Virus record (IMG/VR): IMGVR_UViG_3300031280_000008
Coordinates: 1-35,541 of that record
Strand: one strand, 5' to 3'
From: a virus
Length of the DNA: 35,541 nt
In this document: in pieces, positions 22,345 to 35,541 of the stretch
Layout of the letters: each line of letters begins with the position of its first letter
How positions within the stretch are numbered: the first letter of the stretch is position 1
Position numbers and translations under genes: made by a program
Notes under the pieces: model-generated
What the model was told of the DNA's origin: nothing
What the model saw: only the letters and a program-made list of their open reading frames with translations
Database searches by the model: none

Positions 22345-22350
22345 CCACTT

Positions 22351-22383: not shown

Positions 22384-22406
22384 ATAACTTTATTAGGAGA
22401 TGTGAG

Positions 22407-23141: not shown

Positions 23142-23169
23142 ACCTCTCTCATCTCACATCTCCTCCAGA

Positions 23170-23200
23170 CCAGGGGCCACGGGGCCCCTGGCATTTTTTT
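23170..23200 (+). terminator. Strong intrinsic terminator after the protease gene
   Basis: CCAGGGGCC (23170-23178) pairs with GGCCCCTGG (23183-23191) around a 4-nt loop, followed by CA and seven T residues (23194-23200). It is the clearest rho-independent terminator in the window and isolates the protease cassette from promoter a. Confidence 0.9.
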
Positions 23201-23219
23201 AGTCCGATAATAGAATTTT
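23201..23219 (+). promoter_or_regulatory. AGTCCGATAA element upstream of promoter a
   Basis: AGTCCGATAATAGAATTTT, identical over 19 bases to 28173-28191, which lies upstream of promoter b. The core AGTCCGATAA also occurs at 29695, 30092 and, inverted, at 29727. Likely a binding site for a phage or host regulator of the early-type promoters (inference). Confidence 0.55.
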
Positions 23220-23238
23220 CAAAATATCGAGATTTTGA

Positions 23239-23268
23239 TTTGCACAAAGTGGGTTCATGTGTTATACT
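23239..23268 (+). promoter_or_regulatory. Phage promoter family, copy a
   Basis: TTTGCA at 23239-23244 and TATACT at 23263-23268, 18-bp spacer, extended -10 (TGTTATACT), followed by ATAAGTAGCGAGG. It belongs to the seven-copy family described for 28201, 29856, 30783, 31772, 32229 and 35347. Unlike the others it has a leader of about 260 nt before the next gene. Confidence 0.8.
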
Positions 23269-23310
23269 ATAAGTAGCGAGGAACAAAGCTCTTTGAGAAG
23301 TTAAAAATTT

Positions 23311-23337
23311 GCGGGGCCCCGTGGCCCCTGCTTTTAT
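23311..23337 (+). terminator. Attenuator-like hairpin close to promoter a
   Basis: GCGGGGCC pairs with GGCCCCTGC (one bulged T, loop CCGT) and is followed by TTTTATT. It starts about 36 nt after the predicted transcription start, so it could stop most transcripts early. Its core GGGGCCCCGTGGCCCCTG is the reverse complement of the terminator stem at 23173-23190. Confidence 0.6.
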
Positions 23338-23520
23338 TGTAGATCACAAGATCGAACAACGAGGCGTCAACTAAAATCTGTCCACGCCTACAAGGCCGAA
23401 TGGCTGGAGAATAAAAGGGGCAGTCAAAACTATGGCTCTGGTGTTAGCTGTTAAACATGGACGACCGTGAGACCGGACAATCACGGAAGTCCGTAAAACA
23501 CCATGCTTTTATAGTAGATC
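23329..23520 (+). repeat. 17-nt imperfect direct repeat bounding the leader segment
   Basis: TGCTTTTATTGTAGATC at 23329-23345 and TGCTTTTATAGTAGATC at 23504-23520 differ at one base. They enclose 158 nt carrying the predicted stems. The second copy runs into TTTTTGGAG, the ribosome binding site of the next gene. The layout suggests a segment inserted or duplicated between promoter and gene. Confidence 0.6.
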
Positions 23521-23534
23521 TTTTTGGAGATGAG

Positions 23535-23738
23535 ATGAGAACATTATTTTTATTATTATGCGTTCATGCTTTAACTGATTTTCAGTTGCAGAACGGAGCA
23601 ATGTGGAAGTGCAAGATGCGAAGCGGCAGTCGTCGCTGGTATCATTGGCTGACTGCCCATGCTCTGATCTGCGGCGGCGGAGTATACTTAGTGACACAGT
23701 CGCTCACTGTTGCTGTTTGTGAAGTAGTGTGTCACTGA
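23535..23738 (+). CDS. DUF3307-family membrane protein, stopped early by in-frame UGA
   Basis: 67 residues to the first stop. ATG 23535 lies 5 nt after GGAG (23526-23529); an earlier ATG at 23457 has no ribosome binding site and lies in the structured leader. FLLLCVHALTDFQLQ and WLTAHALICGGGVYLVT match DUF3307, a small membrane protein family of bacteria and phages. The family continues past this point with a conserved H-x-L/I-I-D segment; here the frame reads ...VVCH, UGA, then LIDFGK. Trp (UGG) often fills the position now occupied by UGA. Function of the family is unknown. Confidence 0.7.
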   Translation: MRTLFLLLCVHALTDFQLQNGAMWKCKMRSGSRRWYHWLTAHALICGGGVYLVTQSLTVAVCEVVCH

Positions 23739-23852
23739 CTAATTGATTTTGGGAAGGGTGAAGATTGGATTAATTCTGAAACTGATCAAGCCTTTCATAT
23801 TGTTTGTCGAATCGTATATGTTATTATTTTGTGGGGAGCTTATTATGTGTAA
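23739..23852 (+). pseudogene. Continuation of DUF3307 gene after the in-frame UGA
   Basis: The same frame stays open for 37 more codons (LIDFGKGEDWINSETDQAFH, then IVCRIVYVIILWGAYYV) and ends in TAA at 23850-23852. LID completes the conserved HxLID motif and DQAFHIVCR fits the family's last TM region. The TAA overlaps the next ATG (ATGTGTAA), the normal dense junction of this genome. So the gene recently had, or still uses by read-through, a full length of 105 residues. The stop context is UGA CUA. Confidence 0.65.
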
Positions 23853-24057
23853 TGAATGTCACTGTAATGATGATCGTGAAGCCGAACAGGATTTAACTGA
23901 GGCAGAAGCAAAAGGTCAATTCCATAAAGTGACAATCCGCGTCACTATGGAAGCCACTGTGGATATGCCTGGATCTGATCACGACACGGAAGACCTGCCT
24001 AACTTCCTGGACGAAGTCCAGATGAACGGCGAAATTGTTGATTGGGAAGAGGTGTAG
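23845..24057 (+). CDS. Small acidic Cys-containing protein, unknown
   Basis: 70 residues from ATG 23845, which follows GTGGGGAG; an earlier in-frame ATG (23743) would overlap the DUF3307 frame and encode its TM region out of frame. The N-terminus MCNECHCNDD has three clustered Cys. The middle is beta-like (HKVTIRVTMEATVDM) and the end acidic. Stop is followed by GTATG of the next gene. Confidence 0.65.
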   Translation: MCNECHCNDDREAEQDLTEAEAKGQFHKVTIRVTMEATVDMPGSDHDTEDLPNFLDEVQMNGEIVDWEEV

Positions 24058-24058
24058 T

Positions 24059-24505
24059 ATGACACTGCCGATCTACCGAATCGAATTTACTTTGTATGCC
24101 GGTGACAATGAGATCGCTGGCTGCGAACAAGAAATGATGCTCCCTATAGAGTATTGGGATCATAAAGCAGCCGAAAAAAGTTTATGGCGAGTAGTGCAGA
24201 GCTTAGCTGAGACGTTAGATGTCATCGACATGGTGACAGGTTGGGCTGGTTTTATTGTATTTGATCGCTATGATTTATGGTGTCTGCACTGGAAGAGTCA
24301 CTACACCTATTATACGTTTCCAGACAAATACGAGGCCCTGGCCAACTTCCTCTTCTGGGCCAAAGATCATAAAGATCAGTTTGAGGACGAACCTAACTTT
24401 GCCGATTGGCATGTGTGCGAATGCGAAACTTGCAAAGCGTTAAACCGTACAATGGTATTACATTTGAGGAGAGAAGAATGTCCAAATTGCTCTTATGTAT
24501 TGTAA
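24059..24505 (+). CDS. Unknown protein with C-terminal zinc ribbon
   Basis: 148 residues from ATG 24059 after GAAGAGG. The body is aromatic-rich (YDLWCLHWKSHYTYYTFP) with alpha/beta character. The C-terminus has HVCECETCKALN and ECPNCSYVL, a four-Cys zinc ribbon. No enzyme motif recognised. The 3' end overlaps the next gene by 28 nt. Confidence 0.65.
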   Translation: MTLPIYRIEFTLYAGDNEIAGCEQEMMLPIEYWDHKAAEKSLWRVVQSLAETLDVIDMVTGWAGFIVFDRYDLWCLHWKSHYTYYTFPDKYEALANFLFWAKDHKDQFEDEPNFADWHVCECETCKALNRTMVLHLRREECPNCSYVL

Positions 24506-24741
24506 TAGCTTTATTTATCTGGTACGAACGCGAATTGGTTGGAGTGGCGTTAGCTCCGATCATTAACATCATCGTCTGTATTCTGTTTATACTCGCGGTG
24601 TTCATTGTTCTTGTGTGTGAAATTGCTTTGATCGTCATCGCTCCGATTGCGTACTCCCTGGGTATTGATAGTGGTGAATGGCACAGCAACATCCTCAAAA
24701 AATCAATGACGATATTTGGAAGCAAGAAAAATGAAAGCTGA
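24478..24741 (+). CDS. Small protein with two transmembrane helices
   Basis: 87 residues from ATG 24478 after GAGGAGAG. Two long hydrophobic stretches: LLLCIVIALFIWY and IINIIVCILFILAVFIVLVC continuing into EIALIVIAPIAYSLGI, so two to three TM helices. Ends with a short basic tail (KKSMTIFGSKKNES). It could be a holin or inner-membrane effector; no family recognised. It overlaps the RtcB gene by 11 nt. Confidence 0.65.
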   Translation: MSKLLLCIVIALFIWYERELVGVALAPIINIIVCILFILAVFIVLVCEIALIVIAPIAYSLGIDSGEWHSNILKKSMTIFGSKKNES

Positions 24742-25936
24742 ATTAGGTAAACGTAGTCAGTTGAATGACATCCGGCGAACGCCGGCAAAACTGTGGGTTG
24801 ATCCTGCGGCACTGGATAGCAAGTGTCACGACCAGCTCAAAATCTTGATGCGGTTGCCATTTGCGGTTCAGCACATCGCAGTCTTTCCTGATGCAAGCTG
24901 CGGTTATGGTATGCCGATTGGCTGTATACTTGCAACCGACAACGTCGTAATCCCGAACGCAGTCGGCGTTGATATTGGTTGTGGTATGATCGCTGTTCGA
25001 TTGCATGGATTGCCTGACGTAGATAAGGTTCGCGATGTGTTACAGAATCTTAGGGAATTAATCAAACAGGCTGTACCTGTTGGCCACAACTGGCACGACA
25101 ATATGTGTGGACATGAAGACATGCCGGCTGAGATGCAGTCATGTCTAATAGTTGGTAAGCAATACGACCGAGCACGGCGACAACTCGGAACACTTGGCGG
25201 TGGCAATCACTTCATCGAGATCCAGGTTGACGAACATGGTGGCATCTGGGTGATGATTCATAGCGGTTCCAGGAATCTCGGCAAGCAGGTCTGTGACTAC
25301 TATTCCAAGTGGGCTCTCGAAGATAACGCCCAACATTATTCGCAGGTGCCCAGGAGTGCTGATCTTGGGTTCTTCCGCCGCGACCATGATGGGTTTGGTC
25401 AATACATCCAGGAGATGGCATATTGTGTTGCCTTTGCCAAGCAGAACAGAGCAAAAATGATGTGGGCTACATTGAAGGCGTTCCAGACGATTTGGCCGAA
25501 TACAATGGTTTCTGGCGAGCGATGGTATGATATATGTCACAACCACATGAGTATTGAAAATCACTTTGGCCGCAATGTGTGTGTACATCGCAAAGGTGCT
25601 GCTGGGCCATATCGAAAAGGAGTCTTTGGCATTATACCAGGGTCTATGGGCTCAAAGTCATACATCGTCTCACATACTGGTGAAAAGCTTTCCTATTTAT
25701 CTACGTCGCATGGTGCTGGCCGAAGGATGTCACGCAAGAAAGCTAAGGAAAATCTGGATCTACAAGATCAACAGATGATGTTGGACGAGTTAGGAGTAGT
25801 TCACGGCCTAAATGGTCGAGGCAATTTGGACGAAGCTCCATCAGCATATAAAAATATTGATAAAGTTATGGCAGATCAAGCTGATCTCTGTAACATTGAA
25901 GTCGTGTTGACACCGATACTTTCTATTAAGGGGTAG
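24731..25936 (+). CDS. rtcB: RNA-splicing ligase RtcB
   Basis: 401 residues, close to the usual 390-480. Conserved blocks: GVDIGCGM with metal-binding Cys84, GTLGGGNHFIE, IHSGSRNLG, PGSMGSKSYIV and STSHGAGRRMSRKKA with the guanylylated His327, ending YKNIDKVM. RtcB joins RNA 2',3'-cyclic phosphate or 3'-phosphate ends to 5'-OH ends using GTP and Mn. In phages it is thought to repair tRNAs cut by host anticodon nucleases. An archease partner is not seen. ATG 24731 has only a weak ribosome binding site, suggesting coupling to the membrane gene. Confidence 0.95.
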   Translation: MKAELGKRSQLNDIRRTPAKLWVDPAALDSKCHDQLKILMRLPFAVQHIAVFPDASCGYGMPIGCILATDNVVIPNAVGVDIGCGMIAVRLHGLPDVDKVRDVLQNLRELIKQAVPVGHNWHDNMCGHEDMPAEMQSCLIVGKQYDRARRQLGTLGGGNHFIEIQVDEHGGIWVMIHSGSRNLGKQVCDYYSKWALEDNAQHYSQVPRSADLGFFRRDHDGFGQYIQEMAYCVAFAKQNRAKMMWATLKAFQTIWPNTMVSGERWYDICHNHMSIENHFGRNVCVHRKGAAGPYRKGVFGIIPGSMGSKSYIVSHTGEKLSYLSTSHGAGRRMSRKKAKENLDLQDQQMMLDELGVVHGLNGRGNLDEAPSAYKNIDKVMADQADLCNIEVVLTPILSIKG

Positions 25937-25940
25937 TGAC

Positions 25941-26897
25941 ATGGATCTTAGAGAATTTTTTACATTACAATCTATACTAAACAAATTCGTTGGGTTTGAC
26001 GAAAATAAGTTTAGAGCTGCGTTTTCTGATTGCAGTCCGCAGAAAGCTCTGGGGGAAATTGATTATGAGGAAAGTCTGCTTGAGGCTGGCCGATGGATCG
26101 ACGACTTCCTTAAAGCGATGAGTAGTGAGATCGAAGAGCTACGAGATTGCACGTTCTGGAAGCACTGGTGCTCTGAGGCCCAGGATGGTGAGCGTTATAA
26201 GATTAAGAACGTGACATCAGCTCGTAATGAAGTGATTGATATGCTTCATTTCTGGATCTCATTGGCCCAGGTGGTCGGCATGACGCCGGAGATGGTTGAG
26301 GAGATGTACCGCAAGAAATTAGATAAGAACATCAGACGACAAGTTAATGGTTACTCAATCACCGAGAAGGATCTGGCTTGGAAGATATATAAGGATGAAA
26401 ATCCAAAGGATCATCCGCAGAGTGTTTGTCCAGACGCGGAAAGCCTGGAAGATCTGCCGGACACCATTCAACTCTATTATCTTGCATTGGCGAAAAGCAA
26501 ACTGGCTGAACAGAAATCAAAAGTCGACGGCTACTCAGTCGAAGAGAAGGATCTGGCTTGGAAACTATTTAACCGGCACGAGTATGTCAATCCAAAGATA
26601 CAGTCACTGGAAGATATGTTGGAAAGTGATCGGATGTTTTGGTTGAATCAGGCAAGGGATTTATTGAAGTCTGAAAATCTGTGTGACACTTGTGTCCACA
26701 ACGAAAATGATTGTAGTATGGCTGTTGGAAAAACGCATAGCTGCTCACGGTATCACAAGAAGACTGTGATTTCCAAAGTACACTTTACTCCAACCGTAGC
26801 TGATGACGTAATACCTACTTGCTCAAAGTGTCGTCGGCCCTGCACTGCTGGATATGCTATGACTGGCGAAGGGCCTGTCTGTGGAAGATGTGTGTGA
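25941..26897 (+). CDS. Dimeric-type dUTPase fused to tandem repeats and zinc ribbons
   Basis: 318 residues. Residues 1-125 match all-alpha NTP pyrophosphatases of the dimeric dUTPase type: EELRDCTFWKHWC, then ARNEVIDMLHFWISLAQ (the ExxD metal motif). Two related repeats of about 50 residues follow (NGYSITEKDLAWKIY and DGYSVEEKDLAWKLF, each ending in a leucine-rich helix). Then come CDTCVHNENDCS and CSKCRRPC...CGRC, two zinc knuckles. The fusion is unusual; the repeats and ribbons may bind nucleic acid or a partner. dUTP hydrolysis is inferred. TAGTGAC precedes the ATG. Confidence 0.7.
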   Translation: MDLREFFTLQSILNKFVGFDENKFRAAFSDCSPQKALGEIDYEESLLEAGRWIDDFLKAMSSEIEELRDCTFWKHWCSEAQDGERYKIKNVTSARNEVIDMLHFWISLAQVVGMTPEMVEEMYRKKLDKNIRRQVNGYSITEKDLAWKIYKDENPKDHPQSVCPDAESLEDLPDTIQLYYLALAKSKLAEQKSKVDGYSVEEKDLAWKLFNRHEYVNPKIQSLEDMLESDRMFWLNQARDLLKSENLCDTCVHNENDCSMAVGKTHSCSRYHKKTVISKVHFTPTVADDVIPTCSKCRRPCTAGYAMTGEGPVCGRCV

Positions 26898-26906
26898 GGT
26901 AGTGAC

Positions 26907-27029
26907 ATGATTAAATGTAAAGAACATTCAAGATATAAAGCTAAAGGAATGCCGAGAAGCAATTGCGATGTCTGCTGGGGTATGTGGCTTGTTACAGAGA
27001 TGAAAAAAGCTATGAGGCATAAAACATGA
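26907..27029 (+). CDS. 40-residue zinc-knuckle protein
   Basis: Starts at ATG 26907 in the recurrent AGTGACATG context and ends in TGA overlapping the next ATG. Sequence features: CKEHSRYKAKGMPRSNCDVC followed by WGMW. The pattern C-x-x-H...C-x-x-C-W is a small, widespread phage family of unknown role. Confidence 0.65.
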   Translation: MIKCKEHSRYKAKGMPRSNCDVCWGMWLVTEMKKAMRHKT

Positions 27030-27160
27030 AGTGTCCAAAATGTGGATCTCAAATGACGCAAGGTGCTCCGCACTATGAAGGATATATTTATCAGTGGGAG
27101 TGTCATAGCTGCGGACACATAATCGGCGTAGGATCTGAACCTGAAAGTGAGAGTGAGTGA
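27026..27160 (+). CDS. 44-residue zinc-ribbon protein
   Basis: ATG 27026 overlaps the previous TGA. CPKCGSQM and CHSCGHII form a classical four-Cys zinc ribbon, followed by an acidic tail (GSEPESESE). Likely nucleic-acid or protein binding. The stop is one base before the ligase ATG (TGACATG). Confidence 0.65.
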   Translation: MKCPKCGSQMTQGAPHYEGYIYQWECHSCGHIIGVGSEPESESE

Positions 27161-27161
27161 C

Positions 27162-27986
27162 ATGAATGAATTTCAAGGCTATATGAGAGCAACAGTTTTT
27201 GCTGAAAAACGTGCAACGTATCCTGGGTGGGTTCAACCAAAACATAATGGCGTTCGCTGTATAGACGATGGAGTGACAGCCTGGACTCGCGAAGGCAATG
27301 TCCACGCACCGCACATCCAAAAGTTACTACGTGAACGATATGGTGTTCCGCCGAAAGGCTGGGTGCGTGACGGTGAGTTGGTTTTGCCCAGACATGATTT
27401 TAGTTTTCAGAAAACCCAGAGTGCTGTTGCTGCGGAGAATGAAAATAGTCACTTGCTCCAGTATCCAATTTTCGATATACACAACAATCATGCAGGTGGG
27501 TCGACCTTTAAGAATCGAATGAAGAAAATAGAGATTCTTACGCCGACGATGTTGGTCGAAAGTTACGAAGAAGTTGATTATTGGTATGATGTTTTTCTGG
27601 AGCAGGGTTATGAAGGTTTGATCTTCCGGACTGACTCACCATATATATTTGGCTCGGCGGGTCGATGTTTAATGAAGAAAAAGCCGATTGACTCTGCTGA
27701 GTTTATCATCGTCGATGTGTGGCAAGGCAAGGGAAAGAATGTAGGCGTGCCGACGTATAGACTTGCTCGGCCCGACTATCCGCCGTGGGAACCTGGGACA
27801 AAGGCCACTAAAAAGAACACGTTTGGGGCAGTACCAAAGGGCACCTATGATGAAAAGAAAGCCTTGTGGCTTTTACACGGCGACGGATCAGTTGTTGGTA
27901 AGCCCTACACCGTCGAATTCGCAGATCTTTATGATTCAGGCGTGCCACAATTTCCAATTGGTATTTGCGTTCGAGATTATGAGTGA
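27162..27986 (+). CDS. ATP-dependent DNA ligase
   Basis: 274 residues from ATG 27162. Motif I is VQPKHNGVRC with Lys27 as the AMP-accepting residue; motif III is LVLPRHDFSFQK onward to YPIFDIHN; motif IV is YEGLIFRTD; motif V is RCLMKKKP; then an OB-fold part (AEFIIVDVWQGKGKNVGV, TVEFADL). Motif I reads KHNG rather than the canonical KxDG. Size matches minimal phage ligases. It seals nicks in replication or repair. Nucleic acid type (DNA rather than RNA) is inferred from length and OB fold. Confidence 0.85.
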   Translation: MNEFQGYMRATVFAEKRATYPGWVQPKHNGVRCIDDGVTAWTREGNVHAPHIQKLLRERYGVPPKGWVRDGELVLPRHDFSFQKTQSAVAAENENSHLLQYPIFDIHNNHAGGSTFKNRMKKIEILTPTMLVESYEEVDYWYDVFLEQGYEGLIFRTDSPYIFGSAGRCLMKKKPIDSAEFIIVDVWQGKGKNVGVPTYRLARPDYPPWEPGTKATKKNTFGAVPKGTYDEKKALWLLHGDGSVVGKPYTVEFADLYDSGVPQFPIGICVRDYE

Positions 27987-28182
27987 TCTACCCTACGACA
28001 AAATGTATGCGTTGCGGCATGGAGTAACCAACAAGATCTGGCGGGTTTGTGAGGGTTGGTGGTTGTTTAAGTCTGTAGCCGACATGAAAAGAACCTGGAA
28101 TGAGATGAAAAAATGTGGTTGTGTAGGCTCGGAATTCGAGGAACACACGATAATCACGATCCAATTATCCGAAGTCCGATAA
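27979..28182 (+). CDS. Small protein, unknown
   Basis: 67 residues from ATG 27979, overlapping the ligase gene by 8 nt; the upstream in-frame open region is inside the ligase and out of its frame. Aromatic-rich middle (IWRVCEGWWLFKSVADM) and one CGC. The weak ribosome binding site suggests coupling to the ligase. It is last in the 25941-28182 group; a new promoter follows. No family recognised. Confidence 0.6.
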   Translation: MSDLPYDKMYALRHGVTNKIWRVCEGWWLFKSVADMKRTWNEMKKCGCVGSEFEEHTIITIQLSEVR

Positions 28183-28191
28183 TAGAATTTT
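28173..28191 (+). promoter_or_regulatory. AGTCCGATAA element upstream of promoter b
   Basis: Identical over 19 bases to 23201-23219. It overlaps the stop codon of the preceding gene and ends 9 bases before the -35 box of promoter b, a typical position for an activator or repressor site. Confidence 0.55.
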
Positions 28192-28200
28192 ATTTTCTCA

Positions 28201-28229
28201 TTTGCATATTCCAGAATATGTGTTATACT
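28201..28229 (+). promoter_or_regulatory. Phage promoter family, copy b
   Basis: TTTGCA at 28201-28206, 17-bp spacer, TATACT at 28224-28229 with extended -10 (TGTTATACT), then ATAAGTAGTGAG. Shares ATGTGTTATACTATAAGTAG with copy a. Confidence 0.85.
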
Positions 28230-28266
28230 ATAAGTAGTGAGAGAGAACACTAAACTGGAGAATGAG

Positions 28267-28431
28267 ATGGAAACAGTAACTATAAAGATCAACTGGAATA
28301 GCGAGATGTCAATCAGCCTCGCGGAGGAAGCCAAAAAGAAACTGGAGAATGCTGGCTGGACATTGATAAACGACGTCGGTGGGATGGTCGAATCAGCTCT
28401 GGTCTATGCAAATTTGAGGAGTGCAAAATGA
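28267..28431 (+). CDS. 54-residue protein, unknown
   Basis: ATG 28267 is 7 nt after GGAG (28256-28259), about 31 nt after the predicted start of promoter b. Beta strand then helix pattern (VTIKINWNSEMSISLAEEAK, KKLENAGWTLI). The stop overlaps the next ATG. No family recognised. Confidence 0.65.
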   Translation: METVTIKINWNSEMSISLAEEAKKKLENAGWTLINDVGGMVESALVYANLRSAK

Positions 28432-28781
28432 AGAGCTGTGCAAAATGTCATCAAGCCTGGGAATTCAGACCGAGAACAGATGAACAAGGTAGGGCTATTT
28501 GCCCGCATTGCGGATACGTTGCAGGTGAATCGCTCGTGCCGTCCGCTTGGGCCTGTGAAGAGTGTGCGAATACTATACTGGATCACGGCGGAGATGACCG
28601 GCCCATCTGTGAAGAGTGCGGGTCGCAAATGTCGTGTCTAACCGCGAAGCCGTCCGGCGTTAGTGGTGCTGGCACTAATGATCTGGGTTTGGAGATGGGT
28701 TTAGAATTGTTGATGGAAGCCCAGGAAGCGGATCTGAATCTCGGTTCTGAGCTGTTGAGGGATGCACAGGAAGACGTGTAG
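28428..28781 (+). CDS. Protein with tandem zinc ribbons
   Basis: 117 residues, ATG preceded by GAGGAG and overlapping the previous TGA. Three to four CxxC pairs: CAKCHQ, CPHCGY, CEECAN and CEECGS, forming two zinc ribbons. The C-terminal 40 residues are acidic with a repeated motif (EMGLELLMEAQEAD then SELLRDAQED). Nucleic-acid or RNA polymerase binding is possible; no family assigned. Confidence 0.65.
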   Translation: MKSCAKCHQAWEFRPRTDEQGRAICPHCGYVAGESLVPSAWACEECANTILDHGGDDRPICEECGSQMSCLTAKPSGVSGAGTNDLGLEMGLELLMEAQEADLNLGSELLRDAQEDV

Positions 28782-28826
28782 TAAAAAGAAAAAATCTTAC
28801 TATATATATGTAGTAGAGGAGACATT

Positions 28827-29414
28827 ATGGGAATGACACAGGACAATAAAATAGATATGGAAGGTGACGTACTCGGCGATCAAAATATCGATGAGCCTAA
28901 TAGAATGACGGAGAAGAAGTGTGCTCATAAAATAAATATGAGGGGCCACGGCGATCCTTGGTGTGTGTTGTTTCGTAAAGTCGCCAACTGCGAATTGTGT
29001 TTTGGCGTTGGAGCGGGTACTAATCATCGCAAGATCAAGGTACTTGGTGACTTGCACGTAGGCTCTGACAAACGCGAACGATATATGAAGATTTACGGCG
29101 GGACGTCTGAGCCTGCAAGGCTTAACTATAATAACATGGTGCAGAAATTGATCGGTCGGCCTGGAGTGACATTGCTGCACGACGAATTTATAATCGATCC
29201 GGAAGAGTGGGTTTCACCTTTTACCGAGGGCGAGTTGGTGACATATAATGATCAGTTGGCCCGCGTCATTAAGATCGTCGGCCCTGTAGTCAAGATCAGG
29301 CTGCAACGGCGAGATTACCCGAAGCATCTTGACGTCATGGATTGGGATATTAAAAAACGGAGTGTTAAAAAGTGGGTTAAGAAACAATTGAGGAAATTAT
29401 GGCACAAGGTTTGA
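28827..29414 (+). CDS. Unknown protein
   Basis: 195 residues, ATG after GAGGAG. The N-terminal third contains KCAHKINMRGHGDPWC and CELCFG (possible zinc site). The C-terminal part has an SH3-like stretch, FTEGELVTYNDQLARVIKIV, and a strongly basic end (KKRSVKKWVKKQLRKLW) suited to nucleic-acid contact. Its last 16 nt overlap the next gene. No family recognised. Confidence 0.65.
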   Translation: MGMTQDNKIDMEGDVLGDQNIDEPNRMTEKKCAHKINMRGHGDPWCVLFRKVANCELCFGVGAGTNHRKIKVLGDLHVGSDKRERYMKIYGGTSEPARLNYNNMVQKLIGRPGVTLLHDEFIIDPEEWVSPFTEGELVTYNDQLARVIKIVGPVVKIRLQRRDYPKHLDVMDWDIKKRSVKKWVKKQLRKLWHKV

Positions 29415-29695
29415 AGTATCCAAAAGAAGTGCCGAACGCGGTTAAAATTACGGTGGGTTCGGAGTCAATGGTTGTTCACGATACACTGGCAGAGCTTGTG
29501 ATTCACCCATACTTCGGGTTCTGGGGTGTCGATGAGATCCTGAAAACACGACTTGGCTCTGGGCCCCAGCTTGCGGTTATTCGGACGTTGGAGTCTTATC
29601 CTTCTATGGGTGAGGCCAAAGCCTATATTGAAGGATTCATGGCCGGTAAAAAGATCGAAAAAATCCGGAATGACGGTGGGTTGCCTTTTCAGTAA
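29399..29695 (+). CDS. Unknown protein
   Basis: 98 residues. A ribosome binding site (TGAGGAAA) lies in the end of the previous gene. Beta-hairpin N-terminus (AVKITVGSESMVVHD), a helix with EILKTRLG and a final GLPFQ. The last codons form the 5' arm of the inverted-repeat structure at 29672-29747. No family recognised. Confidence 0.65.
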   Translation: MAQGLKYPKEVPNAVKITVGSESMVVHDTLAELVIHPYFGFWGVDEILKTRLGSGPQLAVIRTLESYPSMGEAKAYIEGFMAGKKIEKIRNDGGLPFQ

Positions 29696-29747
29696 GTCCG
29701 ATAAAAGGGTGGGTTGGTACTGCATATTATCGGACTTACCCACCGTC
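29672..29747 (+). promoter_or_regulatory. Nested inverted repeats, possible RNA switch or terminator
   Basis: Outer arms GACGGTGGGT (29672-29681) and ACCCACCGTC (29738-29747) are perfect complements. Inner arms TAAGTCCGATAA (29693-29704) and TTATCGGACTTA (29727-29738) form a 12-bp stem with a 22-nt loop. The loop holds a second copy of GGTGGGTTG (29708-29716; first copy 29675-29683), so the ACCCACC arm can pair with either. Downstream is TATAATATTTT. The inner arms are also two inverted copies of the AGTCCGATAA element, so the site may act as DNA operator, RNA structure or both. Confidence 0.6.
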
Positions 29748-29855
29748 CCTATAATATTTTCGTCTGCAAGTTCATTATCGGACGTCACTATGTTGCGTCG
29801 TTACTATAAAAAGTATACTACAATTATCTGTAATTGCAAATAATTTTATTTTTTA

Positions 29856-29884
29856 TTTGCATCCTCTCTACTATGGTGTATACT
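29856..29884 (+). promoter_or_regulatory. Phage promoter family, copy c
   Basis: TTTGCA at 29856-29861, 17-bp spacer, TATACT at 29879-29884, then TTAATTAGAGAGG. Leader to ATG 29908 is about 17 nt. Preceded by an A/T-rich tract that could act as an UP element. Confidence 0.8.
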
Positions 29885-29907
29885 TTAATTAGAGAGGATG
29901 TGAAATT

Positions 29908-30459
29908 ATGAATATCAGCTTTAAGACAGAAGAACAAACATATAAAATGATCAACGTGATCAAGAAGAGCGGCCCTGGCGGCAAGTCTTTTATTGAGGCT
30001 GGTGTGCTCTTCAATCAAAAAGTGTTGACGGCCTGTGGCAAAATTCATGCAGCACTATTGCAGTTGTCAGACGAGGAAGCTGAGAAGTTTAAGTCCGATA
30101 ACAAAGAATTCTTCGACGGCTTTGCCTGGGTATACTACATGGATTGGAAGAAACAAAAAGCCAAAAGCTGTGCTCATCTGCTGGATGTATATAGTATGCT
30201 AAATGTCAAGCTGGGCATTCAAGATTTTGTTGGTGAGACATTCTACGCGGGCATACCCTTGACGACGGCTGCGGAAGTCAACGAAGCAATCCAAACTTGT
30301 CAAGTAGCCGAAGATGGGGTGACACCGATTGGCCCAGAAGACGCGGGTTTGATCATGCGAAGATCGGGATCGACGGCCAATTACATAAGACCGATAAATA
30401 TGGCGAATTCGAGCCCTGGTCTGATAACAATGACATCTACAGCGACGGCACAGGCGTAA
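29908..30459 (+). CDS. Unknown protein; 3' end probably out of frame
   Basis: 183 residues as read. ATG follows GAGAGGATG. Residues 1-145 look like genuine protein (helical, VLTACGKIHAALLQLSDEEA, FAWVYYMDWKKQKAKSC). From about residue 147 the composition turns to Ser/Thr/Arg-rich low-quality text, while the -1 frame from the same point reads as a good protein to 30590. The switch coincides with G GGT TTG at 30345-30351, a canonical X XXY YYZ slippery heptamer in the zero frame. Either a programmed -1 frameshift or a one-base error. Confidence 0.65.
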   Translation: MNISFKTEEQTYKMINVIKKSGPGGKSFIEAGVLFNQKVLTACGKIHAALLQLSDEEAEKFKSDNKEFFDGFAWVYYMDWKKQKAKSCAHLLDVYSMLNVKLGIQDFVGETFYAGIPLTTAAEVNEAIQTCQVAEDGVTPIGPEDAGLIMRRSGSTANYIRPINMANSSPGLITMTSTATAQA

Positions 30460-30590
30460 CCAAGGCGGAGATGGACGCCATAATTGAGGCTGAGAACAAG
30501 ACCGATACTCCGTGCGTGACTTGTAAATGGACGACGTTAGGTTGTGCCAGTCAGTGCGATGAAGGCTGCGGAGCACACGAAAAAATATGA
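30345..30590 (+). other. -1 frame extension of the 29908 gene
   Basis: From the slippery site this frame reads GFDHAKIGIDGQLHKTDKYG, then EFEPWSDNNDIYSDGTGVTK and a Cys-rich end (CVTCKWTTLGCASQC, CDEGCG), stopping at 30590. No ATG with a ribosome binding site opens this frame before 30471. Joined to the upstream gene it gives a protein of about 227 residues with a C-terminal zinc-binding segment. If it is separate, a short gene could start at ATG 30471. Confidence 0.55.
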
Positions 30591-30736
30591 TCCTAATAGT
30601 TTTAATATTTTGTTGTTTGTATCGCTCTGATATACCCTATCCGACGACATGGGTTTTAATTAGAACGCGTATATTAACCCCGTGGCGTTCAGCAAGGCGG
30701 GCCGGTCTTGCACGCTGCGTCTGTGGTTGGGGATGA
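30587..30736 (+). CDS. 49-residue hydrophobic peptide, possible
   Basis: ATG 30587 overlaps the stop at 30588-30590 in the ATGA arrangement used throughout this genome. The N-terminus MILIVLIFCCLY is a likely membrane segment; the rest is Arg-rich (RTRILTPWRSARRAGLARC). The DNA of the second half is GC-rich and can form a hairpin (GCAAG...CTTGC), so this stretch may instead be untranslated. Confidence 0.35.
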   Translation: MILIVLIFCCLYRSDIPYPTTWVLIRTRILTPWRSARRAGLARCVCGWG

Positions 30737-30782
30737 ACAGGTCACGATCCCGCTCGTCGGCGGAAATTTATTTGAGAATTAA

Positions 30783-30811
30783 TTTGCATCTCGGCGATTC
30801 TGTTGTATACT
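30783..30811 (+). promoter_or_regulatory. Phage promoter family, copy d
   Basis: TTTGCA at 30783-30788, 17-bp spacer, TATACT at 30806-30811, then TTAAGTAGTGCGAG. The upstream bases GAGAATTAA and the spacer start TCTCGG are shared with copy f. Confidence 0.85.
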
Positions 30812-30849
30812 TTAAGTAGTGCGAGACAGAATTATTGAGGAGATTAAAA

Positions 30850-31455
30850 ATGCGAATTGACACTGTAGAAACCAAAGTTTACAAACTCGGCGAATTATCG
30901 GACGATGCAAAGCAGGCGGCAATTGACAAACTGCGAGAAAGCTGTCACGATTATGAGTGGTGGGAATACATCTATGAAGACGCCAAGGAAATCGGCAAGC
31001 TCATAGGTATTGACATCACCAATATTTACTTCTCCGGCTTTTCGTCAAAAGGCGACGGTGCCTGCTTTGAAGGTAGCTACGAATATAATAAAAATAGTGT
31101 TGCTCTTGTCAAGGAATACGCTCCCAAAGATGAAGAGCTTCACCGGATCGTTTCTGAGTTAGCTGCTCACCAGCGGAAACGTCTCTATCAAATCCGTGCT
31201 TCCGTCAAGCATTCCGGACACTATCAGCACCGGTTCTGCACTAATATTAGCGTCGACTTTGAAAGCTGGTTTGGTGGTGACTCCTATGATAGCGAAGTTG
31301 AAGCCGACGTGATCGAGCTGCTGCGGGATTATATGTACTGGATATACAAACAGTTGAACGCAGAAAGCGATTATATGATGAGCGACGAAGCGATTACAGA
31401 GACAATCGAAGCGAACGAATATGAGTTTACTATTGACGGTGAATTGTATTTATAG
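30850..31455 (+). CDS. Conserved phage protein, unknown function
   Basis: 201 residues from ATG 30850 after TTGAGGAG. It begins with LGELSDDAKQAAIDKLRES, then WWEYIYEDAKEIGKLIGIDI and IYFSGFSSKGDGACFEGSYE, a signature I recognise from many phage and plasmid proteins annotated only as hypothetical or as TA-related. The middle has HSGHYQHRF (His-rich). The C-terminus is acidic and helical. It is the single large gene behind promoter d. No function claimed. Confidence 0.75.
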   Translation: MRIDTVETKVYKLGELSDDAKQAAIDKLRESCHDYEWWEYIYEDAKEIGKLIGIDITNIYFSGFSSKGDGACFEGSYEYNKNSVALVKEYAPKDEELHRIVSELAAHQRKRLYQIRASVKHSGHYQHRFCTNISVDFESWFGGDSYDSEVEADVIELLRDYMYWIYKQLNAESDYMMSDEAITETIEANEYEFTIDGELYL

Positions 31456-31465
31456 TAGGGGTGAC

Positions 31466-31645
31466 ATGCTAACTAAGAAGACCGACAAAATTCAATGGTA
31501 TAATATCAGGAAACGCGGTGAACGCGGCTGGACGACTTACGAGCTGACAGATGGACAAGCTAACAATCTAAAGTCTTGTTATGAGAAGACAGGCCCACAT
31601 AAATCGCTGATTGTTTGCATGATAAAAGCTAATGAGGGGAAGTGA
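31466..31645 (+). CDS. 59-residue basic protein, unknown
   Basis: ATG 31466 follows TAGGGGTGAC. Sequence is basic with YNIRKRGERGWTTYELTDG, a beta-hairpin-like stretch, and a helix with HKSLIVCMIKANEGK. Stop is followed by another GTGACATG context at 31647, which opens only 17 codons. No family recognised. Confidence 0.6.
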   Translation: MLTKKTDKIQWYNIRKRGERGWTTYELTDGQANNLKSCYEKTGPHKSLIVCMIKANEGK

Positions 31646-31771
31646 CATGGAAAGCGGGTCTGGGCAATGGTGGCGGTTACAGATTTTGAAACCAAGGTGA
31701 GACCTGAATCGCAGGGCGGCAAGTGGCTGCTGGCCCAGAAGATGGTTATTTTGAAAATATTATAATTTCTA
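31646..31771 (+). other. Short gap, no convincing gene
   Basis: Holds a GTGACATG-started frame of 17 codons (31647) and an ATG at 31667 opening 32 codons (ends TAA 31765). Neither has independent support; it could be the remnant of a deleted gene, because the start motif GGGGAAGTGACATG is intact but the frame ends quickly. Confidence 0.4.
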
Positions 31772-31800
31772 TTTGCATCTGCTGGATTCTGTTGTATACT
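31772..31800 (+). promoter_or_regulatory. Phage promoter family, copy e
   Basis: TTTGCA at 31772-31777, 17-bp spacer, TATACT at 31795-31800, then TTAAGTAGTGAGAG. Leader to ATG 31842 about 35 nt. Confidence 0.85.
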
Positions 31801-31841
31801 TTAAGTAGTGAGAGAGAAAGTTAAAATTGAGGAGATTGAAA

Positions 31842-32213
31842 ATGGCAGAATTTGTAGAAGGCAGATTAAACGGTGATTACGGTGAAAAGATGGTGGCTTT
31901 GGCCCAGAAGATCGAGGAGCAGACCCAGCAGCGGCTGCGGGATGACGATCTGGCTTGTCAAGCAAATTTAGATAACGCCAAAACATATATCAGGATCGGC
32001 AAGAAGTATGATAAGATCGACATCGGCGGTTCCGGAAAACTCATGGTCGAACGCGAGACCGGAAACATCTTCGGGATCAAGGCTTACGGCAAAATCCACC
32101 GAGGTCATTTTTTTGGCACCCTGGACACTATCGACGATTGGTACTGGGGCGAATACCGTCCGATAACCGTCGAGCAGAATTCAAAGCGAATTCGGATCAG
32201 GTTCAAAGGATAA
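31842..32213 (+). CDS. Conserved phage protein, unknown function
   Basis: 123 residues from ATG 31842 after GAGGAG. N-terminal helix (EKMVALAQKIEEQTQQRL), then a beta domain: KKYDKIDIGGSGKLMVERET, GNIFGIKAYGKIHRGHFFGT and LDTIDDWYWGEYRP. This second part matches a small protein common in phages and annotated hypothetical. Possibly a nucleotide- or nucleic-acid-binding beta barrel; unproven. It is the only gene between promoters e and f. Confidence 0.75.
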   Translation: MAEFVEGRLNGDYGEKMVALAQKIEEQTQQRLRDDDLACQANLDNAKTYIRIGKKYDKIDIGGSGKLMVERETGNIFGIKAYGKIHRGHFFGTLDTIDDWYWGEYRPITVEQNSKRIRIRFKG

Positions 32214-32228
32214 TTTTCTGAGAATTAA

Positions 32229-32257
32229 TTTGCATCTCGGTCAATCTGTTGTATACT
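32229..32257 (+). promoter_or_regulatory. Phage promoter family, copy f
   Basis: TTTGCA at 32229-32234, 17-bp spacer, TATACT at 32252-32257, then TTAAGTAGTGAGGAG, in which the conserved downstream box runs directly into the ribosome binding site of the next gene. Confidence 0.85.
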
Positions 32258-32279
32258 TTAAGTAGTGAGGAGATTAAAA

Positions 32280-32441
32280 ATGGATTCAGATAAAAGACCT
32301 GTAAGATATTTGGAATGTGGTTGCTGTGGTTATTTTCACAAAGAAAGTTTTACTGGCGATTGTAGAAATGACGATGCACGATATGGTCTTGATGATCTGG
32401 ACGGTGTTGATATAGATTTAATTATAGCCCTGGAGAATTAA
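32280..32441 (+). CDS. 53-residue acidic zinc-knuckle protein
   Basis: ATG 32280 after GAGGAG and promoter f. ECGCCGYFHKESF-like start (C-x-C-C, His) then GDCRNDDARYGLDDLDGVDI, an acidic tail. The GDCRND segment is shared with small phage proteins of unknown role. Stop TAA is followed two bases later by the next ATG. Confidence 0.65.
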   Translation: MDSDKRPVRYLECGCCGYFHKESFTGDCRNDDARYGLDDLDGVDIDLIIALEN

Positions 32442-32443
32442 AA

Positions 32444-32773
32444 ATGTACGAATGTCAAGAGATAACAAAAAGTAGTCATCCTACCGAATGGGCTTTAATC
32501 CTAAAATGCTTTCCTAACTATCGCAAGCGTAAAGCTAATTTGATAATGACCGAACGGACTACAATGTATGGTCGATATTGGAGTGACGGATCAATCAGTC
32601 GCTATGCTATCGTGGCCCCTGGTGGGGAAATAACACAAGTACCAAATCGCAACGACTATCCGTTTACTACTCCGGACGAAGAAACCGATCTGACAGACGG
32701 CACGCAAGTTGTGCAGTGCGGTGTGTTCTGCGGAAAACCTGGACAGGCTTATTTATACAGGGGGCCAAAATGA
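32444..32773 (+). CDS. Unknown phage protein
   Basis: 109 residues, ATG after CTGGAG. It looks like a compact beta domain: MYGRYWSDGSISRYAIVAPG followed by a TQVPNRNDYPF turn; two Cys near the end (VQCGVFCGKPGQ). ATGA overlap with the next gene. No family recognised. Confidence 0.65.
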   Translation: MYECQEITKSSHPTEWALILKCFPNYRKRKANLIMTERTTMYGRYWSDGSISRYAIVAPGGEITQVPNRNDYPFTTPDEETDLTDGTQVVQCGVFCGKPGQAYLYRGPK

Positions 32774-33096
32774 ATCTGACATTTACAGAATACAGAAGCA
32801 AAGTATTGAAGACAATGTCCACGAAATTCGACATGAATTACATCGTCCGGATGCCAGGATTTTCGACTTGGCGATCAGATAACATCTGTGCGAATCACTG
32901 GAAGCTCGCTGTTGAAGTCTTTGAATGTGTGCTCGCGATGGAGCTGTACTATGTTGGCGAGCTTATGGTTCACCCGATCAAGTGTGATCAGTGCAATCAA
33001 AGCATGGCGGAAGAGGCTTATGTTCACGCGACGTGCAATAAGTGCCGTGTACATAATTTGGATAAGCTGGAAGCAAAAATGAGATCGAGGAAGTGA
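32770..33096 (+). CDS. Unknown protein with zinc knuckle
   Basis: 108 residues from ATG 32770 (overlapping the previous TGA); an earlier in-frame start lies in the previous gene. Helical N-terminal part (NHWKLAVEVFECVLAMELYY); C-terminal CDQCNQSM and CNKCRV pairs form a zinc ribbon; basic end. Stop is one base before the next ATG (TGACATG). Confidence 0.65.
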   Translation: MNLTFTEYRSKVLKTMSTKFDMNYIVRMPGFSTWRSDNICANHWKLAVEVFECVLAMELYYVGELMVHPIKCDQCNQSMAEEAYVHATCNKCRVHNLDKLEAKMRSRK

Positions 33097-33097
33097 C

Positions 33098-33574
33098 ATG
33101 GCTAAAAAAGAAATGCGATTTGCAGAGTATGAAGAGAGAATCCTTGGCTTGCCCAGTATCGTGCTGCGTTATATCATCAAAGACGCGAAGGAAGCAATGG
33201 AGCTTAATCCGGACAGTGAGAACAACAGCTATTACTCCGATGAGATTTTGCTTTGTAATCAGGAAATATCTCGGCGATTAAAACCGAAAAATAGACACGA
33301 ACGTTATGACGAATTTCATTCTACACTAACAGAGATCGCTGTTTGTCTAAAGAACGCCGGATATAGTAGTGGTGGTATGATCGACGATCTGAAAGACTTA
33401 ATCAATGACGCAAAACGACCTGCAACTGAGGAAGCTGAGGGTGTCGACTTTCATGCAAAGTATGAAGAGCTGGTTGAAGCGATTCTGCTATGGGCAAAGA
33501 CGCCTGGAAATCACGGCGGAAATCCTTATTGCCATAGCTTTATGAAATTGGTTCCCTGGAAGGATAGGAAGTGA
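33098..33574 (+). CDS. Conserved phage protein, unknown function
   Basis: 158 residues, ATG in the GAAGTGACATG context. FAEYEERILGLPSIVLRYII, then KDAKEAMELNPDSENNSYYS and DEILLCNQEISRR form a helical motif found in many phage hypothetical proteins. The C-terminal half is a helical domain (YEELVEAILLWAKTPGNHGG). No enzymatic residues evident. Confidence 0.7.
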   Translation: MAKKEMRFAEYEERILGLPSIVLRYIIKDAKEAMELNPDSENNSYYSDEILLCNQEISRRLKPKNRHERYDEFHSTLTEIAVCLKNAGYSSGGMIDDLKDLINDAKRPATEEAEGVDFHAKYEELVEAILLWAKTPGNHGGNPYCHSFMKLVPWKDRK

Positions 33575-33575
33575 C

Positions 33576-33986
33576 ATGAAAGAACGAACGCAAATATGGA
33601 CACAAGGTGACATTGCCGAAGTGAAGCAAGGCTGGGATTGTGCTGGCACTATATTTACTGTCCTGGGGCCTGCTGTATTTCTCAAACAGTGGTGGGTTCC
33701 TGTAGACGACATAGCAGAAGACGATCCGACGTTCTTCAAAGAAGCTGCGTTAACTTTGATCGAGCCCAAACGAGATGGTAGGAAAGCCGCAACCGGATCA
33801 GCGTTTCCTTATCGTTTGTCAAACGCGGCAAGAGATAGACTCATCGTGAATTTTCTTACAACTGGATCGAGCACACACAGCTCAGCGGGAATGTGTTTAG
33901 GTGTGCTGCTTGAATACTGTCATAAAAAGCAGATCAATTTCAGATTGATCAAAGTGAACCACGGTTATTTTTTGAGGAAGAGCTGA
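33576..33986 (+). CDS. Unknown protein with SH3-like N-terminus
   Basis: 136 residues. The N-terminal 50 residues (GDIAEVKQGWDCAGTIFTVL, FLKQWWVPVDD) resemble a small SH3-like barrel. The C-terminus is helical (GMCLGVLLEYCHKKQINFRL). ATG in the GAAGTGACATG context. No family recognised. Confidence 0.65.
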   Translation: MKERTQIWTQGDIAEVKQGWDCAGTIFTVLGPAVFLKQWWVPVDDIAEDDPTFFKEAALTLIEPKRDGRKAATGSAFPYRLSNAARDRLIVNFLTTGSSTHSSAGMCLGVLLEYCHKKQINFRLIKVNHGYFLRKS

Positions 33987-33987
33987 A

Positions 33988-34188
33988 ATGTGGAAATTAG
34001 TGTATATGACTAAGAAGTGGTACGCAGTGAAGTACGACTGCTCAGAAGATTTACTGCTGGAGATAGAGGATGCAGTCTTCGAGCATGTGAACCAAGGAAC
34101 AATCGTGGCCCTGGCTGACGATCTTGAGTGGTTCGCCGATGAGATGAGCCTTGATGTAAACGACATTATTCAAGTGGAGCGAGAGTGA
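33988..34188 (+). CDS. 66-residue acidic protein, unknown
   Basis: ATG follows GAGGAAGAGC. Beta strand start (WKLVYMTKKWYAVKYD) then acidic helices (EDLLLEIEDAVFEHV, LADDLEWFADEM). It ends one base before the next ATG. Acidic, DNA-mimic-like composition is possible but not specific. Confidence 0.6.
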   Translation: MWKLVYMTKKWYAVKYDCSEDLLLEIEDAVFEHVNQGTIVALADDLEWFADEMSLDVNDIIQVERE

Positions 34189-34189
34189 C

Positions 34190-34471
34190 ATGGATACAGT
34201 ATATAGAATATACACCGAAGCAACCGAAGTGATCCGGATTATGAATTACGTCGGCGAATACTTTGAAGGCTTTACTATGTTCGGCGGCACTGGGCATTGG
34301 CGGGGCCGTCGAGAAAACTGTCTTGTAATCGAGATCATCTGTCACGGTCATAGTGAAGACAGAGTCAAGGTCTTGAAGATTGCTTCCTGGATCAAATCAA
34401 CTTTCAAACAAGAATCTGTGGCTGTCACTGTATCACAAGTGAAAGTCTATGTTGTGGGGAAATCATTATGA
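34190..34471 (+). CDS. Unknown small protein
   Basis: 93 residues, ATG in GAGTGACATG. Contains FTMFGGTGHWRGRRENCLVI and a helical/beta C-terminus (VAVTVSQVKVYVVGKSL). The alternating alpha/beta pattern suggests a ferredoxin-like fold. Stop overlaps the next ATG. Confidence 0.65.
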   Translation: MDTVYRIYTEATEVIRIMNYVGEYFEGFTMFGGTGHWRGRRENCLVIEIICHGHSEDRVKVLKIASWIKSTFKQESVAVTVSQVKVYVVGKSL

Positions 34472-35106
34472 AGTATACACGATTCGAGCAGAAGACTATA
34501 GATAAAGATTATTTAAGAAGTCACGAATTATTTCATACGCTGGTTCGATGCCGGTGATGAAGCATTCGACGAAATGCTTGTACAACTCCACGTGCTGGCT
34601 TCCCACGGCGGCTACACTGGCTTCACTAATTGTGCGGCTCCGATGGTCATTGATCATCTGTTCCGGGAAAGCCTGGGACGTCATGGCGTCCTATTCTAAA
34701 GAAGAGCTGGTATAGTGGTGTTCCAGATGATGTAGATACGATCTATCCTACATTCAAAGACTCGTGGTTTACGTTCGCCAAGTGTCACTACCTACTAAAT
34801 AAACCGGAAGGCTACGAGCTATATTTACCTCACGAGAATCTGGTGCCTGCATTCCTGGGTGTAATGGCCGACATCATGGAGCAATTGAAGAGTGAATTTT
34901 CAATACCACTACTGGCAAACTATATTCAGTATTTTGTAATCGGCCATCCTTTTAAGGCAATCAACTTTTCAATCTGCATGGCTCAAGTGAATGCTTTGTT
35001 GTATTTGGCCGGATTTGATCCGATCTATCACGAACACCTGGACTTTGCTTGTTTCGTTTACGACTACTATCGTATTGAAGCAATCTTTAAGGAGCTGGTG
35101 ACATGA
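34468..35106 (+). pseudogene. Phage protein split by two compensating frameshifts
   Basis: ATG 34468 overlaps the preceding TGA, but its frame stops at 34557. Good protein text then continues in the +1 frame, YFIRWFDAGDEAFDEM and ASHGGYTGFTNCAAPMVIDH, open from 34517 to TAA 34697-34699. It then returns to the first frame, open after the TGA at 34651-34653: WRPILKKSWYSGVPDDVD onward through ELYLPHENLVPAFLGVMADI to TGA 35104-35106. Read as one, it is a protein of about 212 residues. Shifts lie near 34515-34540 (+1) and 34654-34690 (-1). A short local start at GTG 34843 would yield only the last 87 residues. Mutation or sequence error cannot be told apart here. Confidence 0.6.
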
Positions 35107-35345
35107 GACACGTACCAATCAACAAGGCACGGATCAGAGTAACCGCGAAAAGCCACCTGACAGATAAGCAATATTATGGCGGGCCTAATCTAACACCTAC
35201 AGACAACGCGACGATCAGCAATATTCTTTTGCTGTGCTTTGGCAACTATAAATTTGAAGTGCCGCCTGTTCAGTGGGGTTTTGAAGCCTGGGCCAACTAT
35301 ATTGGCTGGAAAGAGGCCCCGATCTCGAAAATAATTTCAGAATAA
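35103..35345 (+). CDS. 80-residue protein, unknown
   Basis: ATG follows GAGCTGGTGAC and overlaps the previous TGA. Basic start (RHVPINKARIRVTAKSHL), then helical aromatic-rich text (LLLCFGNYKFEVPPVQWGFE). No cysteine pair or TM helix. A promoter of the seven-copy family follows immediately. Confidence 0.6.
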   Translation: MRHVPINKARIRVTAKSHLTDKQYYGGPNLTPTDNATISNILLLCFGNYKFEVPPVQWGFEAWANYIGWKEAPISKIISE

Positions 35346-35346
35346 A

Positions 35347-35375
35347 TTTGCATTTTCCTGAATATGTGTTATACT
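35347..35375 (+). promoter_or_regulatory. Phage promoter family, copy g
   Basis: TTTGCA at 35347-35352, 17-bp spacer, TATACT at 35370-35375 with extended -10 (TGTTATACT), then TTAAGTATAGAGGAG, which merges with the ribosome binding site for ATG 35399. Confidence 0.85.
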
Positions 35376-35398
35376 TTAAGTATAGAGGAGAATGAAAA

Positions 35399-35541
35399 AT
35401 GACAAGAAAACAATTTGAGGCAATAGCAAAGATCATTAATACAGAGAGCTTTCCGAGGTGAAGACCAATTAGATCGAATTTCTAAGAAGCTGGCCGATTT
35501 GACTTTGGACGATTTATGAAAGCATGTGGAGTGCCTGATGA
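35399..35541 (+). pseudogene. Small phage protein, frame broken and cut by window end
   Basis: ATG 35399 opens MTRKQFEAIAKIINTESFPR and stops at 35461. The next frame gives FRGEDQLDRISKKLAD, and from 35501 the original frame gives DFGRFMKACGVPD to the window edge. Together these match a common small phage protein type that starts with RKxFEAIAKI and ends with RFxxACGV. The breaks look like one extra base near 35452 and one missing base in the T run near 35500. It follows promoter g. Confidence 0.5.

Follow-up and report, generated by a model that had tools for sequence, protein, structure and literature searches.

The DNA considered here is the whole of IMG/VR record IMGVR_UViG_3300031280_000008 (35,541 bases; hereafter the window), a complete record from an uncultured tailed phage, and our subject is a family of seven promoter sites in its accessory region, the first at 23239 and the last at 35347. 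Genes in the window encode tail proteins, DNA polymerase A, a DUF5906 primase, an SNF2 helicase, proteins like Pam3 gp33 and gp34, RtcB, and dUTPase-like and ligase-like proteins. Its polymerase and those of Pseudomonas phages such as Epa5 are approximately 50% identical, and megablast of positions 20001-35541 against isolated phages gave no match. The relatives used for comparison are seven records whose polymerases are 71-79% identical to that of the window; the primase, DNA-transfer and 31842 proteins, used as queries for further relatives, recovered no new complete accessory regions.

A preliminary description of the window had listed seven sites composed of TTTGCA, a 17-bp spacer (18 at 23239) and TATACT, and all seven are present where it placed them (Table 1), with matrix scores of 47-56. 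The downstream box that they have in common, TATACTNTAANTAGNGNG, occurs seven times in the window, compared with 0.18 matches expected from dinucleotide shuffles, and none of 100 shuffles reached seven. Every site except 23239 stands 16-35 nt upstream of a gene start, as described: the start codon comes 31, 17, 32, 35, 16 and 16 nt after the predicted +1, taken as the A of TTAAGTA. The three TTGACA promoters named in the same description, at 4093, 11489 and 20640, are likewise real. Sites 30783, 31772 and 32229 have a common spacer and ribosome binding site (RBS) sequence; they look like recent duplicates, and the seven sites would then not be fully independent. The minus strand has a further TTTGCA-N17-TATACT at 29812-29840, placed back to back with site 29856, that lacks the box and scores 16.6 with the matrix; we rejected it as a divergent partner of site 29856 because the box is absent and no gene was identified behind it.

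Table 1. Promoters, predicted RNA elements and selected genes in the window.
Feature	Position	Strand	Predicted +1	Start codon	Remarks
TTGACA-class promoter	4093-4121	+			Comparison class, without downstream box
TTGACA-class promoter	11489-11517	+			Upstream of Pam3 gp33-like gene
TTGACA-class promoter	20640-20668	+			Upstream of gene 20678, near-leaderless by appearance
Trypsin gene	22368-23141				Boundary before first promoter site
Intrinsic-terminator-like hairpin	23170-23191	+			Strong; close before site 1, which it separates from the preceding operon
Promoter site 1	23239-23276	+	23275		18-nt spacer; matrix score 47.2; no gene, would drive non-coding leader
boxA-like element	23288-23299	+			GCTCTTTGAGAA; in site 1 leader
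Second terminator-like GC hairpin	23313-23328	+			Where relatives have tRNA-like genes
Conserved structured non-coding RNA	23330-23423	+			Possible fold of four stems with a CTGTCC/GGGGCAG pseudoknot; also in G005, G006, G007
RtcB RNA ligase gene	24716-25936	+			Downstream of site 1
Promoter site 2	28201-28237	+	28236	28267	Predicted read-through hairpin masks CTGGAGAAT; z -1.9
Promoter site 3	29856-29892	+	29891	29908
15-bp read-through hairpin, site 3	29856-29904	+			29856-29870 (-35 and spacer) against 29890-29904 (leader and RBS); -21 kcal/mol, z -4.2
Promoter site 4	30783-30819	+	30818	30850	Predicted read-through hairpin GATTCTGTT/ACAGAATTA; z -2.6; Shine-Dalgarno sequence masked in part
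Promoter site 5	31772-31808	+	31807	31842	Hairpin not significant
Promoter site 6	32229-32265	+	32264	32280	Just weak ATCTC/GAGAT complementarity
Promoter site 7	35347-35383	+	35382	35398	CATTTTCCT (35351-35359) pairs with AGGAGAATG (35386-35394); z -2.5

Distribution of the promoter family

In the relatives, TTTGCA-N15-19-TATACT occurs in 1 to 12 copies per record, all on the strand that encodes the polymerase, compared with 0-1 for a reversed-pattern control. A two-block matrix trained on the window sites only found sites in all seven relatives (1-13 distinct sites each at a strict score, nearly all on the coding strand), whereas dinucleotide shuffles gave practically none and the isolated comparison phages Pan1, R5C and Epa5 had none. 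When [TC]TTGCA was required at the right spacing and the -10 was not imposed, TATACT was present in 34 of the 38 listed coding-strand cases with any TAxxxT, as opposed to 1 of 14 on the opposite strand. Across the seven records compared, no site falls in the block that runs from the tail genes through the primase to the trypsin gene; the first stands directly after the trypsin gene and the others follow through the accessory genes. The confinement of these promoters to accessory genes, which had been pointed out for the window, holds true there and in all relatives.

A second exact pattern matched 68 IMG/VR stretches, and the 58 resulting loci that had not been used previously yielded 64 further sites. 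Profiles were built from a main set of 56 sites and from a set enlarged with other contigs to 120 sites and their leaders. The same promoter architecture was found in dozens of unrelated uncultured phage contigs, and what the other contigs of the family have in common with the window group is limited to distant generic homologues (DNA polymerase and similar). A blastn search with the promoter consensus against isolated phages gave chance-level matches only. The family marks a large group of uncultured phages, and no isolated carrier was found at BLAST sensitivity.

Did the motif come from bacterial chromosomes? We rejected this origin: the strict motif has 14 matches in 257 Gb of bacterial genomes, scattered over unrelated taxa in a chance-like manner, and it was present in 0 of 392 Planctomycetota genomes and 3 of 384 Omnitrophota genomes. 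In two Omnitrophota genomes, copies stand directly upstream of c-di-GMP-I-GGC riboswitches (L237:1500-1637; L051 near 1697, minus strand). Judging from this position, the copies show that the motif can serve as a chromosomal promoter, and they hint at a host lineage without establishing the host.

Promoter anatomy and recognition

Both in the 56-site profile and in that of 120 sites, the layout is an AT-rich upstream tract, TTGCA, an unconserved spacer, T-R-T-G-n, TATACT and then T T A n G T A G. TATACT is nearly invariant, and around it T-5 is present in 56/56 sites, R-4 in 54/56, T-3 in 42/56, G-2 in 29/56, T7 in 56/56 and A8 in 55/56; beyond index 13 conservation drops, to about 0.2-0.6 bits immediately behind the box and 0.02-0.6 bits (mostly <0.3) over indices 14-39. 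Sigma-70/sigma-A promoters may have, as known elements, an UP-like tract and a TRTGn extended -10, and the sites studied here resemble such promoters in the order of elements, the spacing and the predicted start: TTGCAn sits in the TTGACN register, N16-17 separates it from TATACT, in keeping with the 16-18 bp of the sigma-70/sigma-A type, and the extended -10 is evident in the 56-site profile. They differ in having TTGCA and not TTGACA, TATACT and not TATAAT, and a TTAnnTAG discriminator that is unusually fixed. With -7 assigned to the final base of the -10, +1 falls on the A of TTAnnTA, and the conserved box, which the preliminary description saw as initial transcribed sequence covering the start, does span the predicted start but consists mainly of discriminator plus start (about -6 to +2) rather than transcribed leader. 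Similarly, the -35 does differ in sequence from TTGACA, but TTGCA(T), placed in the TTGACA register, is the better reading. Since CTTGCAn-N17 and CTTGACn-N17 occur in the same register, and some TTGAC promoters of the accessory region have the same downstream box, TTGCA is best read as a variant of the housekeeping -35. For promoter templates, TTAAGTAG is the substitution named beside the change of TTGCA to TTGACA.

Which polymerase, then, reads these promoters? The preliminary description was correct in recognizing a multi-copy phage promoter family of the accessory region, but the phage factor or modified polymerase that it suggested is not supported. Under that proposal, the phage would encode a sigma factor, an activator or a modifier of RNA polymerase by which TTGCA/TATACT/TTAnnTAG is read as a middle- or late-type promoter. 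This would account for a box after the -10 that is conserved as strongly as the -10 itself, for the near-absence of the full motif from bacterial genomes and for its confinement to one genome region; moreover, the invariance of TTAnnTAG exceeds what sigma-70 alone is known to need, a point that counts against recognition by the host enzyme. We consider a phage factor improbable nonetheless. With working controls, the window and the seven relatives gave no Sigma70 region 2 or region 4 domain, which argues against a classical phage sigma, small modifiers being beyond the reach of that test. A search of the same genomes for T7-type polymerase (PF00940) was also empty, though the control genome gave no match either. 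In addition, the phages that share the motif have no gene in common beyond the distant matches mentioned above, TTGAC takes the place of TTGCA, with no shift of register, in promoters that are otherwise alike, and chromosomal examples stand upstream of riboswitches. Given the sigma-70-type anatomy, the lack of a phage sigma domain and these riboswitch-linked look-alikes, recognition by the host RNA polymerase is favoured over a phage factor.

A different account of the downstream box would be that a TATGT...ACATA dyad around the -10 forms an operator for a phage or host repressor or activator. Near-perfect dyads do exist at L119-17415 (CTATGTAT-TATACT-ATACATAG), L115-5068 and L121-8178, and dyad halves match at 3.18 of 8 positions versus 3.07 in within-genome permutations (p 0.0015), but this is a very small effect, the TRTGn of the extended -10 accounts for the left half, right-half positions 9-10 vary and 0/7 window sites are among the best dyads; we regard an operator as unlikely. 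It is very improbable that the conserved stretch is a 5' mRNA tag acting post-transcriptionally on stability, processing or translation, a possibility that the preliminary description had also raised, because conservation collapses after about +2, even though 5' ends in the window and at some sites of G004 repeatedly show AGTGAG/AGAGAG. Least credible of all is that the seven copies reflect recent duplication of promoter-gene cassettes with elements that are not individually selected: the three duplicate-like sites would fit, yet the spacers of the relatives have fully diverged while their boxes are near-invariant, and orthologous promoters keep their boxes, a spacer-versus-box contrast by which the idea appears already largely refuted.

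We conclude, with a probability of about 70%, that the seven sites belong to a strong, factor-independent promoter family of the host sigma-70/sigma-A type, the spacer of which often doubles in this group as an arm complementary to the RBS (an anti-RBS arm). Host RNA polymerase with its main (sigma-70/sigma-A-type) factor would recognize an assembly of AT-rich UP-like tract, TTGCA -35, TRTGn extended -10, TATACT and TTAnnTAG discriminator/start. In this way each of several small accessory genes would get its own start, as would one non-coding RNA region, probably early in infection. The sequences themselves show the family, its conservation, its location and the complementarity, while sigma-70 recognition, the position of the start, the early timing and the silencing of translation are inferred.

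Two observations concern the TTGACA class. The promoter at 20640 and its counterparts have a -10 that ends 9 nt before ATG (as TATACTGAGGACACTATG) in 4/5 records (window 20640-20690; L115:2474; L121:11047, minus strand; L137:47, minus strand), and the gene behind them likely has a conserved near-leaderless mRNA. Several spacers of this class hold inverted repeats of their own (e.g. ACCAGACTGAGTTTGGT and CCAGGCTGTCCGTCTGG; window 20640, L112:17798), which are possibly operators.

Complementarity between spacer and ribosome binding site

At site 29856 an inverted repeat of 11-15 bp links the spacer with the RBS, and this repeat was the starting point of the idea that the spacer masks the RBS. 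Perfect spacer:leader complements of at least 7 numbered 7 in the 56 sites, compared with 1.1 when spacers and leaders were swapped between sites (p 5e-4). The duplex energy between spacer and Shine-Dalgarno (SD) sequence was -7.17, compared with -5.90 after swapping (standard deviation 0.31; 0/5000 permutations as low; n=42) and -5.44 with shuffled spacers (z -5.2), whereas the TTGAC-class control from the same phages had no effect (-5.16 versus -5.34; z +0.5). In folded read-through RNA the mean unpaired probability of the SD was 0.27; shuffling of the upstream part raised it to 0.38 (p 1.7e-4), and the native RNA had 0.65. Within the window, folding was strongest at 29856, followed by 30783, 35347 and 28201 (z-scores in Table 1). 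The orthologous promoters of gene 29908 have unrelated arms in three phages, each pairing with its own RBS (-21.9, -15.4 and -19.7 kcal/mol). In mRNA read through from an upstream promoter, the spacer would fold onto the RBS and no translation would follow, while mRNA begun at the local promoter would lack the arm and be translated.

Several results weigh against giving this role to the whole family. Sites 31772 and 32229 have little or no masking hairpin. The idea was seen and first tested on the same sites, and the replication set (53 sites of new, independent contigs) had a swap p of 0.02-0.05 with z between -2.6 and -2.9, a small effect, and was null for SD accessibility. At the original sites, within-genome swaps gave p 0.016 only. 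We also rejected the generic fold z-score as proof of a hairpin, as it did not separate the TTGCA class (-0.81) from the TTGAC class (-0.82). Because of the same-data origin, the weak replication and the overlap in fold z-scores, we hold masking for part of this group's sites only; there it is likely, and beyond the window's phage group it is unproven.

The principle of read-through masking is already established in T4 and has been proposed for sigG. In T4 (I-TevI, segB, soc, e and others) and in Aeh1 mobE, RBS-sequestering hairpins are combined with an internal late promoter (PMC2988022), such that upstream transcripts fold onto the RBS and the local promoter, starting inside or after the 5' arm, gives translatable mRNA. 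The likeness is clear, but those are T4 middle/late promoters and single-gene cases, whereas here the putative arm lies in the spacer of the promoter itself, in a sigma-70-type family that stands before several accessory genes. A 5' arm complementary to the RBS upstream of the start, as in the T4 type, is found in the window group, not at every site, and weakly in other phages. For Bacillus subtilis sigG, a large hairpin was proposed to block translation of read-through RNA and cannot form in RNA started at PsigG (PMC5942855); the hairpin is again restricted to read-through RNA, but this is a single cellular gene with sigma-F/sigma-G promoters and no family. Cluster K mycobacteriophages have SAS/ESAS elements before many genes, approximately half with an inverted repeat beside the start-associated sequence and conserved by gene phamily (PMC3203893). 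These too are repeated elements before many phage genes, although all copies of the ESAS repeat follow one consensus; in the present family each site has a different arm, and the promoter boxes alone are shared.

Accessory regions of phages gain and lose genes rapidly within dense one-way transcription units, and the independent expression of each gene has seldom been accounted for. If true, a portable promoter that also suppresses translation of read-through RNA would offer a simple explanation, and genetic design could make use of such a part. Accessory genes could then change places in a unidirectional genome undisturbed by neighbouring transcription. We regard the new sigma-70-type phage promoter family as genuine, its recognition by the host as our judgement and a built-in translational insulator in this group as probable. 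It is a more tentative proposition, and one to which we give somewhat less than even odds, that a normally unconstrained -35/-10 spacer is used as an anti-RBS arm such that each cassette insertion brings its own start together with translational insulation.

The leader and RNA locus behind site 23239

Alone among the seven in having no gene, site 23239 lies between the two terminator-like hairpins of Table 1, and it appears to drive transcription through a boxA leader towards a non-coding RNA. Among the 120 leaders, the boxA-like [GT][CT]TCTTT[AG]ANAA has 8 exact matches and 15 with at most one mismatch, whereas shuffles give 0.04 and 0.44, respectively. In the window, the element is one core position off the published gamma-proteobacterial consensus GYTCTTTAANA (PMC5725501). 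As in the NusB/S10 boxA leaders of rRNA operons (PMC5725501, PMC4807359), a GYTCTTT(A/G)A element stands in an untranslated leader, here before a non-coding RNA region; the differences are that this is a phage and that GA replaces AA at the core of the putative boxA in this group. Near-perfect E. coli-type boxA copies (GCTCTTTAACAA, GCTCTTTAAAAG) occur in leaders of other phages of the family (L193:3714; L202:5746, minus strand).

The same boxA promoter leads into tRNA or tRNA-like genes in G004-G007. ARAGORN found four intron-containing tRNAs with inserts of 65-92 nt in G005-G007 and two ordinary tRNAs in G004, and no intron-containing tRNA in the window itself, which has a GC hairpin in place of the tRNA-like part and retains the RNA of ~94 nt that follows. 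The tRNA-like genes with anticodon-loop inserts (ARAGORN -i: Pro, Thr, Ser, Ser) are on the minus strand at L119:15185-15323, L120:4228-4369 and 4593-4763, and L121:6724-6882. Their inserts are too short for typical group I introns, and position 33 is not U in some, so that a decoding function is doubtful.

Copies of the ~94-nt RNA lie directly 3' of the tRNA-like genes in L119, L120 and L121 (reverse complement from 15388, 4833 and 6955, respectively), and by our own inspection the four sequences have compensating changes in two stems. An Rfam search with the window and the ~94-nt RNA gave nothing significant, and an exact pattern of this RNA found no copies in viral contigs beyond G005, G006 and G007. 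With its boxA leader and non-coding RNA region, site 23239 is a lead to a phage RNA locus, so far unstudied, in the neighbourhood of an RtcB ligase gene; RtcB homologues are present in G002, G004, G005 and G007.

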